This document shows positions 1 to 4,819 of a stretch of DNA of 36,662 bases, piece by piece. A program made the position numbers and the translations under genes. This DNA comes from Actinomycetaceae bacterium (GTDB taxonomy: Bacteria > Actinomycetota > Actinomycetes > Actinomycetales > Actinomycetaceae). The notes under the pieces are model-generated. The model saw nothing but the letters and a program-made list of their open reading frames with translations, did not search any database and was not told the DNA's origin. Each line of letters begins with the position of its first letter. The first letter of the stretch is position 1. The stretch is from NCBI GenBank assembly GCA_030537735.1, contig JAUNVG010000019.1:1-36662 (forward strand), in the 5' to 3' direction.

Positions 1-346
1 TGACCTGCTCGGTGTAAACCCACACCGCCTCGCATTTGGACAGCAGGACGCGGTTGAAGAACATCGCCAGTTCGCGTGCGTCTGGGTCGGTGTCATCCAT
101 GAACTGCGGAAACAACAGGTGTGGGGCGAGTGGGATCTTGCGGCGGGCTACCACATGGGCGCAAAACCGCTGAGCTAGCTGCACGTTCGCCTCAACATCC
201 CCCGAATAGGGCGAGCAGATGTAGACCAGGGGCCTGTACCCGTATTCGGAACGCTGGAGGTGCGTGAGGGCTTGGTACATGGTCGGGTCCGCGTACCCCT
301 CACGGTTCTTACGCGAGATACCCACATCCATAACGGCGCAGTTCAT
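1..346 (-). CDS. Phage DUF4406/DUF7768-like protein (partial, runs off left edge)
   Basis: The minus strand is open from an ATG at 346 to the window edge (115 codons). After about 45 residues it reads VYICSPYSGDVEANVQLAQ, then FCAHVVARRKIPLAPHLLFPQ and later MFFNRVLLSKCEAVWVY. A VYICSPYSG strand, a stretch on moving items to later dates or places, and a CDxxWVY strand are the pattern of small phage proteins related to nucleoside 2-deoxyribosyltransferases (DUF4406/DUF7768). Its substrate in phages is not settled. The ATG overlaps the antirepressor stop as ATGA, so the two genes are probably translationally coupled at the end of the phage operon. The C-terminus is outside the window, so catalytic residues cannot be fully checked. 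Confidence 0.7.
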   Translation of the reverse strand, partial: MNCAVMDVGISRKNREGYADPTMYQALTHLQRSEYGYRPLVYICSPYSGDVEANVQLAQRFCAHVVARRKIPLAPHLLFPQFMDDTDPDARELAMFFNRVLLSKCEAVWVYTEQV

Positions 347-1110
347 GAGTTTTCCTGCCCTTCACGTTCGATCACCGGCAGCAGGCCACAGGCGTTTTTC
401 AGCAAGTCGTAGATAAACAGGCGGCCCTTTTGGGTCCAGTACATGTGGGTGCGGGTCTGGCCTTCGCCGTACTCATGGGTTTTGGACTGGGTGTAGCCCT
501 GCTTGGCGAAACGCGCGTAGAGGAACCAGCGGCCTGACTGGTGGAATTGCACACCCTCATCACGCAGAATCCGATTCAGCCGCTTCGCGCTTAGCCCATA
601 GTCCTTCGCGATCTCCGTTGCAGTAAGCAAAGAATCGGACTGGAGCACGATGTCGTAATACGAGACTTTCGGAGCCGCCTCCAACAGGGCTTGCTCGGCA
701 GCGAGGCGTTTCATCCGCTCGGTGCGCAGATGCGCAATCGCCTGCTCCAAAAACTCGTCATTAGTCAGTAGTTCGTCGATCGCGTACAAGCCATGGCGGC
801 GGATTGAGGGTAGGACTTCGTCGAACACCCACGACTCAAACCGCTGAGCGGCAGGCAGCTTCGACGCTGCTATCAGCCGGTAGAGGTCACCTTCGGTAAT
901 GAACCTGGTTTGCTGGATGCCACCAGGGGTTTGAAGGGGGTAACGTTTTGGACCCCCCTTGCAATGGTCACGGATCGCTTTGCTTGGGTTCTCATACCCT
1001 AGTGCGGTAGCGACATCGCGGCCACAAAACAGGATTGTGCCGTCGTGTTCGATAGTTCGGATCTGCCCGAAATGCTCGTGGCTGAAGGATTGGAGTGTGT
1101 TGGTAGCCAT
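343..1110 (-). CDS. Phage antirepressor, BRO-N plus KilAC domains
   Basis: This 255-aa protein has two parts. Residues about 10-110 match a BRO-N domain (GTILFCGRDVATALGYENPSK, then FITEGDLYRLI and FESWVFDEVLPSIRRHG). The C-terminal half is a KilAC/ANT-type domain (YYDIVLQSDSLLTATEIAKDYG, LNRILRDEGVQF, YWTQKGRLFIYDLL). Such proteins are phage antirepressors or DNA-binding regulators that act on the lysogeny decision, often by binding the repressor. The start is ATG at 1110 with AAAGGAG about 7 nt upstream. It is the penultimate gene of the minus-strand phage operon, 151 nt after the polymerase, and its stop overlaps the next start. Fold assignment is firm; the target repressor is not in the window. 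Confidence 0.9.
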   Translation of the reverse strand: MATNTLQSFSHEHFGQIRTIEHDGTILFCGRDVATALGYENPSKAIRDHCKGGPKRYPLQTPGGIQQTRFITEGDLYRLIAASKLPAAQRFESWVFDEVLPSIRRHGLYAIDELLTNDEFLEQAIAHLRTERMKRLAAEQALLEAAPKVSYYDIVLQSDSLLTATEIAKDYGLSAKRLNRILRDEGVQFHQSGRWFLYARFAKQGYTQSKTHEYGEGQTRTHMYWTQKGRLFIYDLLKNACGLLPVIEREGQENS

Positions 1111-1169: not shown

Positions 1170-1261
1170 TAGGAGGGCTTTGAGCAGGCCTGGTTTATAA
1201 CCCTGCGCACGAAACTGCTTATTCCTGCTAGGTGTCGTTAAGTCCGTGCAGCCTACTCAGG

Positions 1262-4162
1262 TCAATCTTTGCGGTAGAACTCGCACTCATAACCATCCGC
1301 AGATAGGGGTAAGCCAACCGCCCAGGGCGGGGTTTGGGACATGAGTTGGCAGACTTCCTTGACGCTGCCTGCGTCGGTGGGGTGGTCGATGATGATTTCG
1401 TCGTGGACGTGCATCACGATCCGATACCCCGCTTGGGTGACTTGGTGCATGGCGTGAACGAGGAGGTCGCGGGCGATGGCTTGGACAATGTTTTCCACGA
1501 GTTTCCCGCCATAGGTTTCTAACTGTCCCCACTTCCTGCCAGTAGTGAGTCCCTGGTAAGTGATGGAGGTGCCTCCGAACCTGTTCTCACCCAGGCGGGG
1601 TTGTACGTATGCCAGGCGTCTGCCCGAGGGCAGGGTGATGAAGAGGATTCCTGACTCGTAGCTGAACTTCAGCTGCCCAAGTTCAATCCCTTGGCGGGTC
1701 GAAACCGTAGTGATAGCGGCTTCATCAACATCAGCCCACAACTGGACGATGTTGGGGTTGGCCGTGCGCCACGCCTCCACGATTGGTTTGAGCTCGGTTT
1801 CGGCCAGACCCATGCGTAGCGCGCCCATGGCTTTCAATGCTCCGACGGAGCCGCCGTAGCCGCAGTTATGGACGAGGTGTCCCGATACGGTGTAACGGTG
1901 ATGTGGTCCGGCATTGAGTAGGTCATAAACTCTAGTCGTGCCTGAATTAGCCGCCAGGCTTCGCGTTTGTCGACCACGGCTTTGCGGGCGTCGTTGATGA
2001 TGTCGGCTCAGCTCATGCCTGCCGAGAGTTTCCTGGTCACTACACTTTTGGCGTAGGGCCAGTAGCGTTGCTCGAAGCAGGAGAGCACCGTGTTGCGGCG
2101 GTTGGCTATGTTGGCTGCCCGTGAGACGAACCTGAGGTTGCCCCTCTCGTAGTGGCCGTTGGTGTCGATCCGATCCAATTCCAAGTCGCGACGCACGTTG
2201 TCGACGTTTTCGAGGATCCATAGCCCGGCCTCTAGCGGAGTAGAGAATCGGAACTCGATGCCACGCCCGCCGTAGGAAGGCCACTGCGGATCGGAAGGAT
2301 TCGTGCAGCGCTGTTTGGCTGCTGTCAGACGCCGGTCGAGCCAGCGCGGAATATGCGGATTGTCTTTCTCCGAGCAGTTCTGGCATCCGTTCGATTTCCC
2401 ACTGGCCAGTGCTGCAAGGTTGGTCCACTCGGTTTTGCCGCAGCCCACGCACTGAGTCTCGACGTAGCAGTGGTTCCAGTTCTTGCCCCAGCGTTTTTGT
2501 GGGTTGATGATCTTGACCCACCCGTATCGGGTGCCGACCATGCCCGGTTTGTAGGAGACGTGCGCCGCTGGCGGCAGCTTGCCCGAGTGGTATCGGCCCC
2601 GGTTTCCCTTGAACCCACACGAGGTGATCGGTGGTGGCTGTGAGCCCGTCGTAGGTGATGACATGTTTTTCTCCTTTGTAAATGACACCGTCATGGCTTA
2701 CCCAACTCAGGCCGTCCCACACCTTGTGATCAGTAGTGATGTGTTCGATGGGTACCTCACCGTGATCGGTGAGCACGAGCTGACCTTCAGCAATACAGGC
2801 GAGCACTGCGATCTTCCCTTTCTGTCGCAATTGCGCGTTCTCACCGTGTTTTTCTACTGGGACGCCGAACATGCGGCTCGCTGTCTCGCAGTACAGATCT
2901 TTACCGTCACGGAACGCCGCTAACGTGGTTTGCTCTCCTGCGAGCCAGGCGATCACGCGAGCTTCGATCGCGGAGTAGTCGGCGACAATGAACCGGCATC
3001 CGGCGCTGGGGATGAACGCGGTCCGGATTAACTGGGAAAGCGTGTCTGGGATGGAGTCGTAGAGTAGTTCGAGGGCTTCAAGGTTGCCTTGTTTCACCAG
3101 GGTGCGGGCCTGCTTAAGGTCGGGCAGGTAGTTACGCGGCAGATTTTGCACCTGCACCAAACGTCCCGCGAACCGTCCTGTGCGGCCCGCTCCGTAGAAC
3201 TGGAGTAGCCCGCGTGCCCGCCCGTCGCTGCCGGTGACGTTGTGCATGGCCTGGTACTTCTTCACGCTGGATTTTGCGAGGTCGCCGCGCAGCTCCAGCA
3301 CTTCACGCACCACGCCGGTGGCGATGTCGAGGGCGGCTTCGACATCAGCCTTCGCCAAGGACGACATCTCGCAGCCGTGGGTGGTGAGCCATTCCTTCAA
3401 CTGGATCGGTGAGTTCGGGTTGTCCAACCCGGTCAACTCTCGCGCCCGCGCCAACGTCGCGCTACGGTGCTGGTCGTCCAGGGCGACAGCGGCGTGCGCG
3501 AGGGTGCGGTCGAGCAGGATGCCAGTGTCGTTGATGCGTTGATCCAGGGCGTAGGCGTCCCACTCGGTCTCAGGCATCGGAAACAAAGAGAGCCGGTCGT
3601 GGATCGCAAGCTCGACCTCGACGTCGCGCTGGTTGTAGTCGATGAACTGTGCCCAGCCGGTCGGGTCGCTGCCCGGCAAGTTCCGGGTACCACCACCATT
3701 GAGCACGCTCGGCGTGGCCGGGGTGCAGAACTGTTTGATCAGCCGCTTACCTGAGTTATCTTTTTGCACCTCAAGGTCGAGGGCACCAGCCGCAGCCTCC
3801 AGGCTCATGGGAAGCCCCAGGTAGGCACTCCAGATCATGGTGCACCGCCACTGCGCCGGATCCAAATATTCCCTCCCATCCATCAAATCGGGATGGTGTT
3901 TACGCAGCCACGCGGAGATACACACCCGCTCAAACGCGGCGTTATGCGCCCACTTCACCACTCCCGGATCCACCAGGGCGTCTAGCACTTCTTCGGGTAG
4001 CTTCTGTCCACTTGCGAGGTCTATGACGTGAACAGGCCCGTGGTTGAAGGAGTAACCGAACAAGACGATGTCAAAGTCTTCGTGTTCTGCATACCGGTAA
4101 ACCCCGGCTTTTGCGAGGTTTACGGGGCTGTAGGTTTCAAGATCACAGCTGAGCGTCTTCAA
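1262..4162 (-). CDS. Phage family A DNA polymerase containing an in-frame intein
   Basis: This is a replicative phage DNA polymerase with an N-terminal DnaQ-like 3'-5' exonuclease (Exo I DLETYS; YNQRDVEVELAI near the Exo III position) and a Pol I-type domain. Motif A is DYSAIEARVIAWLAG (from about residue 395), motif B is RQKGKIAVLA/CGYGG, and motif C is HVHDEIIID near the C-terminus. Motif B is split by a 311-residue intein (residues 456-766 from this start); without it the protein is about 655 aa, normal for the family. The start is taken as TTG at 4162 because AAGGAG lies 6 nt upstream and the exonuclease motif follows at once; a GTG at 4201 would add 13 unlikely residues. The polymerase should be active only after splicing. 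It follows the DUF2815 and DUF2800 genes, the usual order in this type of phage replication cassette. Confidence 0.92.
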   Translation of the reverse strand: MKTLSCDLETYSPVNLAKAGVYRYAEHEDFDIVLFGYSFNHGPVHVIDLASGQKLPEEVLDALVDPGVVKWAHNAAFERVCISAWLRKHHPDLMDGREYLDPAQWRCTMIWSAYLGLPMSLEAAAGALDLEVQKDNSGKRLIKQFCTPATPSVLNGGGTRNLPGSDPTGWAQFIDYNQRDVEVELAIHDRLSLFPMPETEWDAYALDQRINDTGILLDRTLAHAAVALDDQHRSATLARARELTGLDNPNSPIQLKEWLTTHGCEMSSLAKADVEAALDIATGVVREVLELRGDLAKSSVKKYQAMHNVTGSDGRARGLLQFYGAGRTGRFAGRLVQVQNLPRNYLPDLKQARTLVKQGNLEALELLYDSIPDTLSQLIRTAFIPSAGCRFIVADYSAIEARVIAWLAGEQTTLAAFRDGKDLYCETASRMFGVPVEKHGENAQLRQKGKIAVLACIAEGQLVLTDHGEVPIEHITTDHKVWDGLSWVSHDGVIYKGEKHVITYDGLTATTDHLVWVQGKPGPIPLGQAAASGARLLQTGHGRHPIRVGQDHQPTKTLGQELEPLLRRDSVRGLRQNRVDQPCSTGQWEIERMPELLGERQSAYSALARPASDSSQTALHESFRSAVAFLRRAWHRVPILYSARGRAMDPRKRRQRASRLGIGSDRHQRPLREGQPQVRLTGSQHSQPPQHGALLLRATLLALRQKCSDQETLGRHELSRHHQRRPQSRGRQTRSLAANSGTTRVYDLLNAGPHHRYTVSGHLVHNCGYGGSVGALKAMGALRMGLAETELKPIVEAWRTANPNIVQLWADVDEAAITTVSTRQGIELGQLKFSYESGILFITLPSGRRLAYVQPRLGENRFGGTSITYQGLTTGRKWGQLETYGGKLVENIVQAIARDLLVHAMHQVTQAGYRIVMHVHDEIIIDHPTDAGSVKEVCQLMSQTPPWAVGLPLSADGYECEFYRKD
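2008..2664 (-). CDS. HNH-type homing endonuclease encoded inside the intein in the +1 frame
   Basis: A 218-aa protein reads in the frame +1 to the polymerase. It has the layout of phage homing-type HNH proteins: RYGWVKIINP strand (res. 46-55), a zinc motif C72-x2-C75...C94-x2-C97, AAKQRCTNPSDPQWPSYGGRG (res. 115-135), and LDRIDTNGHYERGNLRFVS...NRRN (res. 163-191), the catalytic HNH-like core. The start is the ATG at 2664, because AAAGGAG lies exactly 6 nt upstream; an ATG ten codons earlier lacks this. It should cut intein-less polymerase genes and so spread the intein. After its TGA the same frame stays open for 57 more codons (2007-1837) with protein-like content (DIINDARKAVVDKREAWR, then MTYSMPDH), so the C-terminus may be cut off by one nonsense change. 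Confidence 0.8.
   Translation of the reverse strand: MSSPTTGSQPPPITSCGFKGNRGRYHSGKLPPAAHVSYKPGMVGTRYGWVKIINPQKRWGKNWNHCYVETQCVGCGKTEWTNLAALASGKSNGCQNCSEKDNPHIPRWLDRRLTAAKQRCTNPSDPQWPSYGGRGIEFRFSTPLEAGLWILENVDNVRRDLELDRIDTNGHYERGNLRFVSRAANIANRRNTVLSCFEQRYWPYAKSVVTRKLSAGMS
2671..2677 (-). promoter_or_regulatory. Internal Shine-Dalgarno for the in-intein HNH gene
   Basis: AAAGGAG on the minus strand, 6 nt before the HNH ATG at 2664, inside the coding sequence for the intein (between blocks A and B). A canonical site here supports independent translation of the endonuclease from the polymerase transcript. Confidence 0.65.
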
Positions 4163-4192
4163 GGGGGTCTCCTTTTGTTGTATGCGAGCGTG

Positions 4193-4227
4193 GGGCGGCA
4201 CCCCTTTTGTTGGTTGGGATGCCGCCC
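4193..4227. promoter_or_regulatory. Hairpin before the DNA polymerase gene
   Basis: GGGCGGCA (4193-4200) and TGCCGCCC (4220-4227) form a perfect 8-bp GC-rich stem with a 19-nt loop in the 93-nt gap between the DUF2815 stop and the polymerase start. On the minus strand the polymerase ribosome binding site AAGGAG follows about 18 nt after the right arm. It is the second of three gene-proximal hairpins in this operon. No T-run follows, so termination is doubtful; attenuation, processing or translation control are possible. Confidence 0.5.
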
Positions 4228-4255
4228 TCTCGTTTTGCGCCCGATGATTCTGGGG

Positions 4256-4819
4256 TTAGTTCAAGAAGTCATCCGCACCGGTGGCAGCAGGTCCGAAGTC
4301 AGACTCTGCACTGATGCGCCCGCCCCCTAACGGTTCTCCGTCGCGGGTCTTTTGGATGTTGCCTAGCCCGCAGGCGATACCCCTGTTTCCGTTCGTGTTG
4401 AACGCATAGAAGCTCAGGGACACGCGGGCGTAGCAGCCGGAGTAGACCTCTGCGCGGTCCAGGATCGGGGCGACGTTTGCATCCACGATCTGCGGGGCAG
4501 TAATGGAATTGGCGTTAACGAAGAAGGCACCTTTGTAGGCATCGTCGTCGCGCTCAATATCCCCATCACGCAGCGGCAACTTGAGTGCTGCCTTGTTGGG
4601 TTTCTTGCCACCAAACTTGCCGATGCCTGCTTCGATGGCTGCATCCACAGCCTTCTCGATGGCAGCGATGGTGGCGGTATCAGTCTTGGGGATGATCAGT
4701 GAAACGCTGTATTTGGGTTTTCCTCCTTGGATGGAGTTCGGCTCCCACACATGCGCATAAGACAGGCGCACTTCACCGGTAACAACACGGGTCGGGTTCT
4801 GCATATTGTTCGTAGTCAT
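4256..4819 (-). CDS. DUF2815 family phage protein (likely ssDNA-binding protein)
   Basis: This 187-aa protein has the DUF2815 pattern: GEVRLSYAHVWEPNSIQGG and KYSVSLIIPKTDTATIAAIEKAVDAAI, then PLRDGDIERDDDAYKGAFFVNANS, a central VDANVAPILDRAEVYSGCYARVSLSFYAF, and GIACGLGNIQKTRDGEPLGGG. DUF2815 proteins are encoded next to phage DUF2800 nucleases and family A polymerases and are thought to be single-stranded DNA-binding proteins with an OB-like fold; that role is by family and context, not shown here. The acidic C-terminus (ATGADDFLN) resembles SSB tails. The start is ATG at 4819, preceded by GAGGA. It lies 15 nt after the DUF2800 gene and 93 nt before the polymerase. Confidence 0.88.
   Translation of the reverse strand: MTTNNMQNPTRVVTGEVRLSYAHVWEPNSIQGGKPKYSVSLIIPKTDTATIAAIEKAVDAAIEAGIGKFGGKKPNKAALKLPLRDGDIERDDDAYKGAFFVNANSITAPQIVDANVAPILDRAEVYSGCYARVSLSFYAFNTNGNRGIACGLGNIQKTRDGEPLGGGRISAESDFGPAATGADDFLN

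Follow-up and report, generated by a model that had tools for sequence, protein, structure and literature searches.

A phage DNA polymerase intein with a likely HNH homing endonuclease gene overprinted in its +1 frame

A stretch of 36,662 nucleotides from an Actinomycetaceae bacterium (assembly GCA_030537735.1, contig JAUNVG010000019.1), called the window below, encodes on its minus strand a family-A phage DNA polymerase whose gene holds an intein. We consider it highly probable that this is a contiguous intein, predicted to splice in cis, that has been overprinted in the +1 frame by the gene of a likely HNH homing endonuclease with a predicted internal ribosome-binding site of its own. At the level of sequence comparison, both frames prove to be open in most of the relatives examined, the nuclease evolves as a protein, the host frame is free of stops and the start signal is conserved; splicing, translation of the HNH gene and DNA cutting are predicted.

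The intein and the nuclease gene in the window

The intein begins with Cys-Ile-Ala-Glu and ends with His-Asn ahead of a +1 Cys. A preliminary description of the window had given its limits as 1865 and 2797 with complete splicing blocks on both sides, and Cys1, TxxH, His-Asn and the +1 Cys were indeed all there. A separate HNH gene was found where that description had put it (2008-2664), in +1 relative to the polymerase and with AAAGGAG six nucleotides (nt) upstream of its ATG, and the polymerase frame was one open reading frame (ORF) without a stop across the whole HNH overlap. The overlap exists as described, but it is wider than first thought, in that the HNH start precedes splicing block B. 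The polymerase probably starts with the TTG at 4162, which has AAAGGAG upstream, and the ORF can also be read from a GTG at 4201. An intein-less homologue in Corynebacterium phage Adelaide (L007; related loci are numbered with the prefix L) reads IAVLACGYQGG across the insertion point, and the insertion falls in what we take to be motif B (the O-helix) by the numbering of E. coli Pol I, so an unspliced polymerase would very likely be inactive. The features of the locus are:

1262..4162, minus strand: family-A phage DNA polymerase precursor with intein, 966 amino acids (matches to DNA_pol_A, phrog_17 and phrog_10285)
2798..4162, minus strand: N-extein, the exonuclease part and the polymerase as far as motif B
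1865..2797, minus strand: intein of 311 codons, from Cys1 to His-Asn followed by Cys+1 (splicing blocks and intein fold match)
2543..2797, minus strand: N-terminal splicing half, residues 1-85 (AlphaFold2 and Foldseek)
2671..2677, minus strand: Shine-Dalgarno sequence AAAGGAG of the HNH gene, within the intein codons Lys-Gly-Glu
2008..2664, minus strand: HNH endonuclease gene in the +1 frame, 218 amino acids (phrog_374; purifying selection)
2624..2635, minus strand: splicing block B, TxxH, residues 55-58 (T55 and H58 invariant in the intein alignment)
1961..2539, minus strand: in-frame middle, residues 87-279, a predicted disordered loop read through HNH code (low model confidence; near-neutral sequence without stops)
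1843..2007, minus strand: continuation of the HNH frame past the TGA of the window, resembling the C-terminal tail of relatives and lying outside the window HNH gene
1865..1960, minus strand: C-terminal splicing half, residues 280-311, blocks F and G (AlphaFold2; His-Asn and Cys+1)
1262..1864, minus strand: C-extein, starting with CGYGG inside motif B

The AlphaFold2 model of the intein (25 sequences) had ten-residue block means of the predicted local distance difference test (pLDDT) of 85-93 over residues 1-80, 60 over 81-90 and 81-92 over 281-311. Across residues 87-194 and 196-279 the pLDDT was below 50, which agrees with the earlier suggestion that the in-frame middle would be a disordered loop. 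The top Foldseek matches were inteins, the best being the NpuDnaE intein 4kl5 (E 6.4e-4), which places the model in the HINT fold. These models point to an intein with the HINT splicing fold, and splicing is predicted. The HNH protein belongs to an HNH sequence family by its matches to phrog_374 (E 1.6e-19) and phrog_3377 (E 1.2e-14), its class assignment being based on PHROGs models. Sequence searches of the PDB with both alignments were unproductive, and the relative L165 matched HNH_3 at E 0.035, under the cut-off of that model.

Selection on the two overlapping frames

Loci were fetched by patterns in the HNH frame only, except for the window and three named phages, which came via the polymerase (L001-L003), so an open polymerase frame was no condition of sampling. 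Expected stops were obtained by shuffling synonymous HNH codons within each gene. The polymerase frame across the HNH had 0 stops in 52 of 52 loci, the window included, with 2 to 16 expected in each. The pooled set of 191 loci contained 113 distinct sequences in 84 clusters; 79 of the 84 had 0 host-frame stops where 660 were expected, the third frame of those 79 had 851 stops against 798 expected, and the loci are phylogenetically related, which means that these counts are not independent events. The remaining five clusters were L118, L119 and L196, in which no intein blocks were detected, and L197 and L199, which are split. The unbroken host frame that had been claimed for the window holds for 79 of the 84 clusters as well.

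A set of 139 loci, which includes many contigs shared with the earlier 52 and a few loci without detectable intein blocks, was open over the whole HNH hit in 131 cases, and the eight others were L118, L119, L196, L197, L198, L199, L172 (at a contig end) and L165. The preliminary description had named a sequencing frameshift and homologues with the HNH in the intein frame as ways in which its reading could fail. The frameshift is excluded because the same layout was met in phages of Gardnerella and Streptococcus, in 51 loci spanning 35-64% guanine plus cytosine (GC) and in the 79 clusters. In none of the 139 loci does the HNH share its frame with both intein blocks; L095 alone has the N-terminal intein part (IntN) in the HNH frame, apparently via a shift inside IntN, and there the C-terminal part (IntC) and the C-extein keep the usual relation. 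The two intein blocks and the two exteins were all located in 116 of the 139 loci (not deduplicated), and Cys1, TxxH in the block B region, His-Asn and the +1 Cys were found in 116 of these 116, a count that is weakened by the loci having been picked by their match to the intein blocks of the window. The intein was exactly 309 residues long in 89 of the 116, and the HNH frame continued beyond its C-terminal end in 41.

The internal start of the nuclease was scored in 25 cluster representatives. An ATG with a Shine-Dalgarno sequence (<= -6 kcal/mol) was present in the HNH frame at intein codons 38-66 in 21 of them, whereas resampling of the synonymous polymerase codons gave an expectation of 1.5 of 25. 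An ATG as such occurred in this segment in 23, at one and the same position in 19 of these, and in those displayed the common ATG is formed by the Tyr codon TAT and a next codon starting with G. In the window, L012, L013 and L043 the start lies 12 nt before the common ATG.

Codon-position variability was compared over 25 clusters from 47 loci with full-length polymerase. In the exteins, codon positions 1/2/3 varied by 0.38/0.25/0.66, and in the middle of the overlap the polymerase positions varied by 0.62/0.35/0.28. Polymerase position 1, which is the third position of the HNH codon, is the most variable in the middle, and polymerase position 3, which is the second of the HNH codon, is the least. 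All three positions were low on the block B side (0.38/0.15/0.21) and in the C-block (0.35/0.23/0.37). This pattern indicated that the nuclease frame dominates the middle and that both frames are constrained at the ends.

The ratio of nonsynonymous to synonymous change (dN/dS) in both frames, a check proposed in the preliminary description, was pooled over 15 pairs without a common locus at identities of 0.74 to 0.994, among which L042/L002 and L040/L003 have the same values and so amount to a single comparison entered twice. The pooled dN/dS was 0.14 for the HNH frame, 0.12 for the extein and, naively, 1.33 for the host frame; among HNH-synonymous changes, 205 altered a host residue and 17 kept it, which gave a ratio of 0.77. 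Among the same changes 24 to 31 host stops were expected and 0 were seen. The nuclease frame is under purifying selection, and the loop can change almost freely in sequence as long as no stop arises.

A natural control came from a second HNH search, which found 32 loci (L206-L237) with the same nuclease family in a polymerase intein at another site. In 32 of 32, IntN is +1 relative to the HNH and IntC lies in the third frame; the HNH gene overlaps IntN and, mostly, the start of IntC. A start codon with a Shine-Dalgarno sequence (free energy, dG, <= -6) stood ahead of IntC in 18 of 26 distinct split loci. The 26 had 443 stops against 408 expected in the IntN frame and 321 against 334 in the IntC frame. 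Without stop depletion in these split loci, nuclease code alone does not hold a frame open; the contiguous intein does. In the HNH tree, a single branch with support 100/100 separated the split loci (22 rows) from the open ones; the tree is unrooted and used 75 of 150 extracted sequences, with near-identical open rows omitted and L235 dropped as the motif was not found. We hypothesize that the split forms may have derived from dual-coding ones, but an unrooted tree fits either direction of change. The helicase adjoining the split polymerase of one locus (L197:6014-7459) has another insertion at its apparent Walker A motif, and a match to LAGLIDADG there fell short of the cut-off.

Relatives, mobility and other overprinted nucleases

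The belief that similar intein-bearing phage polymerases exist was borne out in Gardnerella and Streptococcus phages, whose polymerases align along the entire length of that of the window. Gardnerella phage vB_Gva_AB1 and Streptococcus phages Javan101 and Javan255 have an uninterrupted polymerase ORF with the HNH in +1, and the polymerase gene of vB_Gva_AB1 has 43% GC, that of the window 59%. Javan104, 107 and 113 had coordinates equal to Javan101 in the search match, and the polymerase frame of Streptococcus phage PhiSdyV1524 (L005) is open. Javan422 retains the intein and has mostly lost the HNH, a Ruminococcus phage polymerase has a mini-intein and that of Adelaide has no intein; HNH-reduced, HNH-less and intein-free alleles (L004, L006, L007) were thus all found, and 6 HNH-less mini-intein loci were gathered. 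A polymerase-frame search with the intein part picked out 1948 protein clusters from the 7994 candidates that were scored, and among the 120 clusters listed, 119 cover at least 98% of the region; the HNH-frame search gave 751 clusters. Among 99 genomes of relatives of the host of the window, 2 matched, namely its own and one other. Related dual-coding inteins also occur in superfamily-2 helicases (L116, L117, L183-L186). Only Sodalis phage SO-1, among 14 named phage records with such a nuclease, annotates the nuclease as its own gene.

More distant polymerases (L182, L188-L195) have HNH identities of 32-47% and are still open in +1, with an intein of about 250 or 317 residues in the three that were measured. 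One viral contig of 214 kb (IMGVR_UViG_3300046030_000049) carries two intein-bearing polymerases 67 kb apart (L038 and L039), whose intein halves are 90% and 97% identical and whose exteins are 69-92% identical per 50-codon block. Directly downstream of the polymerase gene of the window (343-1110, minus strand) lies an anti-repressor Ant gene, which is consistent with a prophage.

Mobility was suggested by one set of loci. The intein of L016 is 96% identical to those of L027/L030, against mostly 59-76% per 50-codon block for the exteins, where the blocks adjoining the intein have higher values (0.94 before, 0.81 after). This pattern is what homing with co-conversion would leave. Other pairs that were profiled, such as L012 and the window, had no excess of intein identity over the exteins.

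Two further arrangements of an out-of-frame nuclease were found. In Dhillonvirus SO-1 and Pubbukkers and in Jerseyvirus SE-W109 the polymerase intein has 299 residues, lies by our reading of the alignment four residues upstream of that of the window and holds the HNH in +2; 0 host stops were seen, with 4.9, 4.9 and 5.5 expected. Their HNH is 36% identical to that of the window and sits on a long branch on the open side of the unrooted tree, which means either a second overprinting or a later shift. In the SO-1 sequence, intein blocks are in the open frame.

Inteins in the DE-x-H motif of phage helicases (L199:5278-6738, L286-L292) carry a DUF559-like nuclease in their +1 frame. The loci of this type are L199, Vibrio phages 104E43.1, 159E43-1b, CP-T1, K391 and 1.088.O, Pseudomonas phage MR14 and Corynebacterium phage phi673, and 0 host stops were seen in 8 of the 8 read, with 4.6 to 11.7 expected. 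The L199 nuclease matches DUF559 (E 1.2e-8), and the other seven, which are 7 of 40 matching phage records, were placed by similarity to L199 alone. The Pfam intein splicing model was above cut-off in four of five helicase proteins scanned (L199, L286, L290 and L292) and below it in L289. This helicase-intein nuclease is unrelated to the HNH of the window.

Weight of the evidence and known systems

In the mechanism that we propose, reading of the polymerase frame would give a precursor whose intein halves fold around a long disordered loop, splice and restore polymerase motif B, and reading of the same mRNA from the internal start would give a separate nuclease. The nuclease would cut polymerase genes that have no intein, and repair would then insert a copy of it. 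Since the polymerase would probably lose its activity through any stop or frameshift within the intein, the host frame would have to stay open, with the nuclease evolving under that restriction.

Several observations weigh against this interpretation. By itself the open frame of the window is only moderately improbable (3.5 stops expected, 0 seen, P = 0.0125). Its HNH had no match among the Pfam and NCBIfam models, and the fold search with its structure model gave no significant PDB match (PacI was third at E 0.4). The window HNH also stops at a TGA (2008-2010) about 50 codons ahead of the end of most relatives; the homologous C-terminal tail is still readable downstream of this TGA, and the HNH may be impaired, a copy perhaps decaying. 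The HNH frame of L005 likewise closes early, and naturally shorter HNH forms also occur in L053 and L056. L165, which is the same locus as L051, has its N half replaced by sigma-70-like sequence, and in L087 and L095 the polymerase frame is disrupted at places that the HNH does not overlap. The scanned segment held no good start in L025, L046, L053 and L059 (in L025 one was found further upstream), and the HNH-less mini-intein L006 keeps start-like sequence there, so part of the start signal may come from the intein protein and the signal is support, not proof. Five of the six related helicase inteins end with Ser-Asn before Cys, not His-Asn; in L117, His-Asn stands before Ser.

It is extremely unlikely, in our judgement, that chance or base composition accounts for the open host frame, around an intein that is effectively dead. 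With 59% GC the polymerase gene is of a composition where long alternative frames occur, and besides the window the GC-rich L056 and L058 had P values of only 0.08 and 0.06. However, the family-wide stop counts, which extend over loci of 35-64% GC, led us to reject chance, and the split relatives without stop depletion and the intact splicing residues of the 116 complete loci also speak against it. Hardly credible either is the view that the insertion is an RNA intron which splices itself and carries an HNH ORF, the frame being incidental. HNH ORFs are common in group I introns, and in the SO-1 record the HNH is assigned to a type I self-splicing intron, but an intron would need no open frame, and here complete intein blocks come with an intein fold. 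Rfam gave no intron match up to E 1 over window positions 1200-4300, its sole match being a small nucleolar RNA on the other strand (23.5 bits against a cut-off of 40), and the RNA intron was rejected on this ground.

Other explanations accept the two frames and differ in how the nuclease is made or what it does. Its production by ribosomal frameshifting as an IntN-HNH fusion, without an internal start, would fit some loci whose HNH frame extends without a stop well ahead of the ATG (by 121 codons in L012 and by 96 in L013). We hold this to be very unlikely, given the ATG with Shine-Dalgarno sequence in 21 of 25 representatives; moreover, 14 of the 23 representatives that have an ATG in the segment leave no more than two sense codons between an in-frame stop and this ATG, hence almost no room for a frameshift. 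It is also unlikely, though to be taken seriously, that the dual coding is real and the nuclease no longer homes, being kept for another role such as regulating the polymerase or excluding phages. Purifying selection on the nuclease would suit such a role, as would the inteins of L012 and the window and of L045 and L050, which are no more alike than their exteins, but the recent transfer of an intein between divergent polymerases (L016, L027/L030) and the presence of related inteins with HNH in helicases as well as polA argue for homing.

If the window does hold a splicing intein overprinted by a homing nuclease gene, this would be a different route by which a parasite lodges in an essential gene, with the nuclease locked in by overprinting and not by fusion. 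It would offer a clean natural test of selection on overlapping genes, given that the same nuclease family sits in related split inteins, where the host frame is under no constraint to stay open, and it suggests a route to split inteins and exposes nuclease genes that annotation has overlooked. We lean slightly towards the wider view that dual-coding inteins form a general, convergent class of phage mobile elements, in which unrelated HNH and DUF559 nucleases have been overprinted in inteins of replication genes, the nuclease is decoupled from the spliced protein and yet cannot be lost without harm to the host gene, and split inteins would arise when the double reading breaks down.

A literature search found no paper presented, by title or abstract, as dealing with an out-of-frame endonuclease in an intein; a 2025 preprint by the ShiLan authors on actinobacteriophage inteins of non-canonical architecture, which PMC11855218 cites for overlapping frames, may overlap and may already cover such nucleases (Gosselin et al., 10.1101/2025.01.02.630785). 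What appears to be new here is the combination of a contiguous splicing intein with an overprinted nuclease. The ShiLan domain and the Pacc40 insertions also hold an out-of-frame HNH in a phage gene that stays open, with a disjunct distribution, and for ShiLan the paper finds neither splicing motifs of an intein or intron nor a detectable ribosome-binding site and suggests that the host methylase tolerates the insert (Arsenault, Gosselin and Gogarten 2025, PMC11855218). The window is like ShiLan and Pacc40 in having its HNH out of frame in an insertion that leaves the host gene open, and unlike ShiLan in its full splicing domain, its conserved ribosome-binding site and its polymerase host gene; with a splicing domain present, it is not a ShiLan-type insertion. 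Canonical large inteins carry a homing endonuclease (LAGLIDADG or HNH) in frame. The window shares with them the HINT splicing halves and a nuclease between blocks B and F, but its nuclease is a separate gene in +1 and its in-frame middle is a predicted disordered loop, so it is not an intein of that kind. Fractured genes, with split inteins and a free-standing nuclease, were reportedly described by Dassa and colleagues in 2009. They too have a nuclease gene between IntN and IntC, and HNH relatives of the same family do sit in split polymerases; the window, in contrast, has IntN and IntC in a single uninterrupted ORF and is not a split intein; its intein is contiguous and its host frame unbroken across the nuclease, as in 79 of the 84 clusters.

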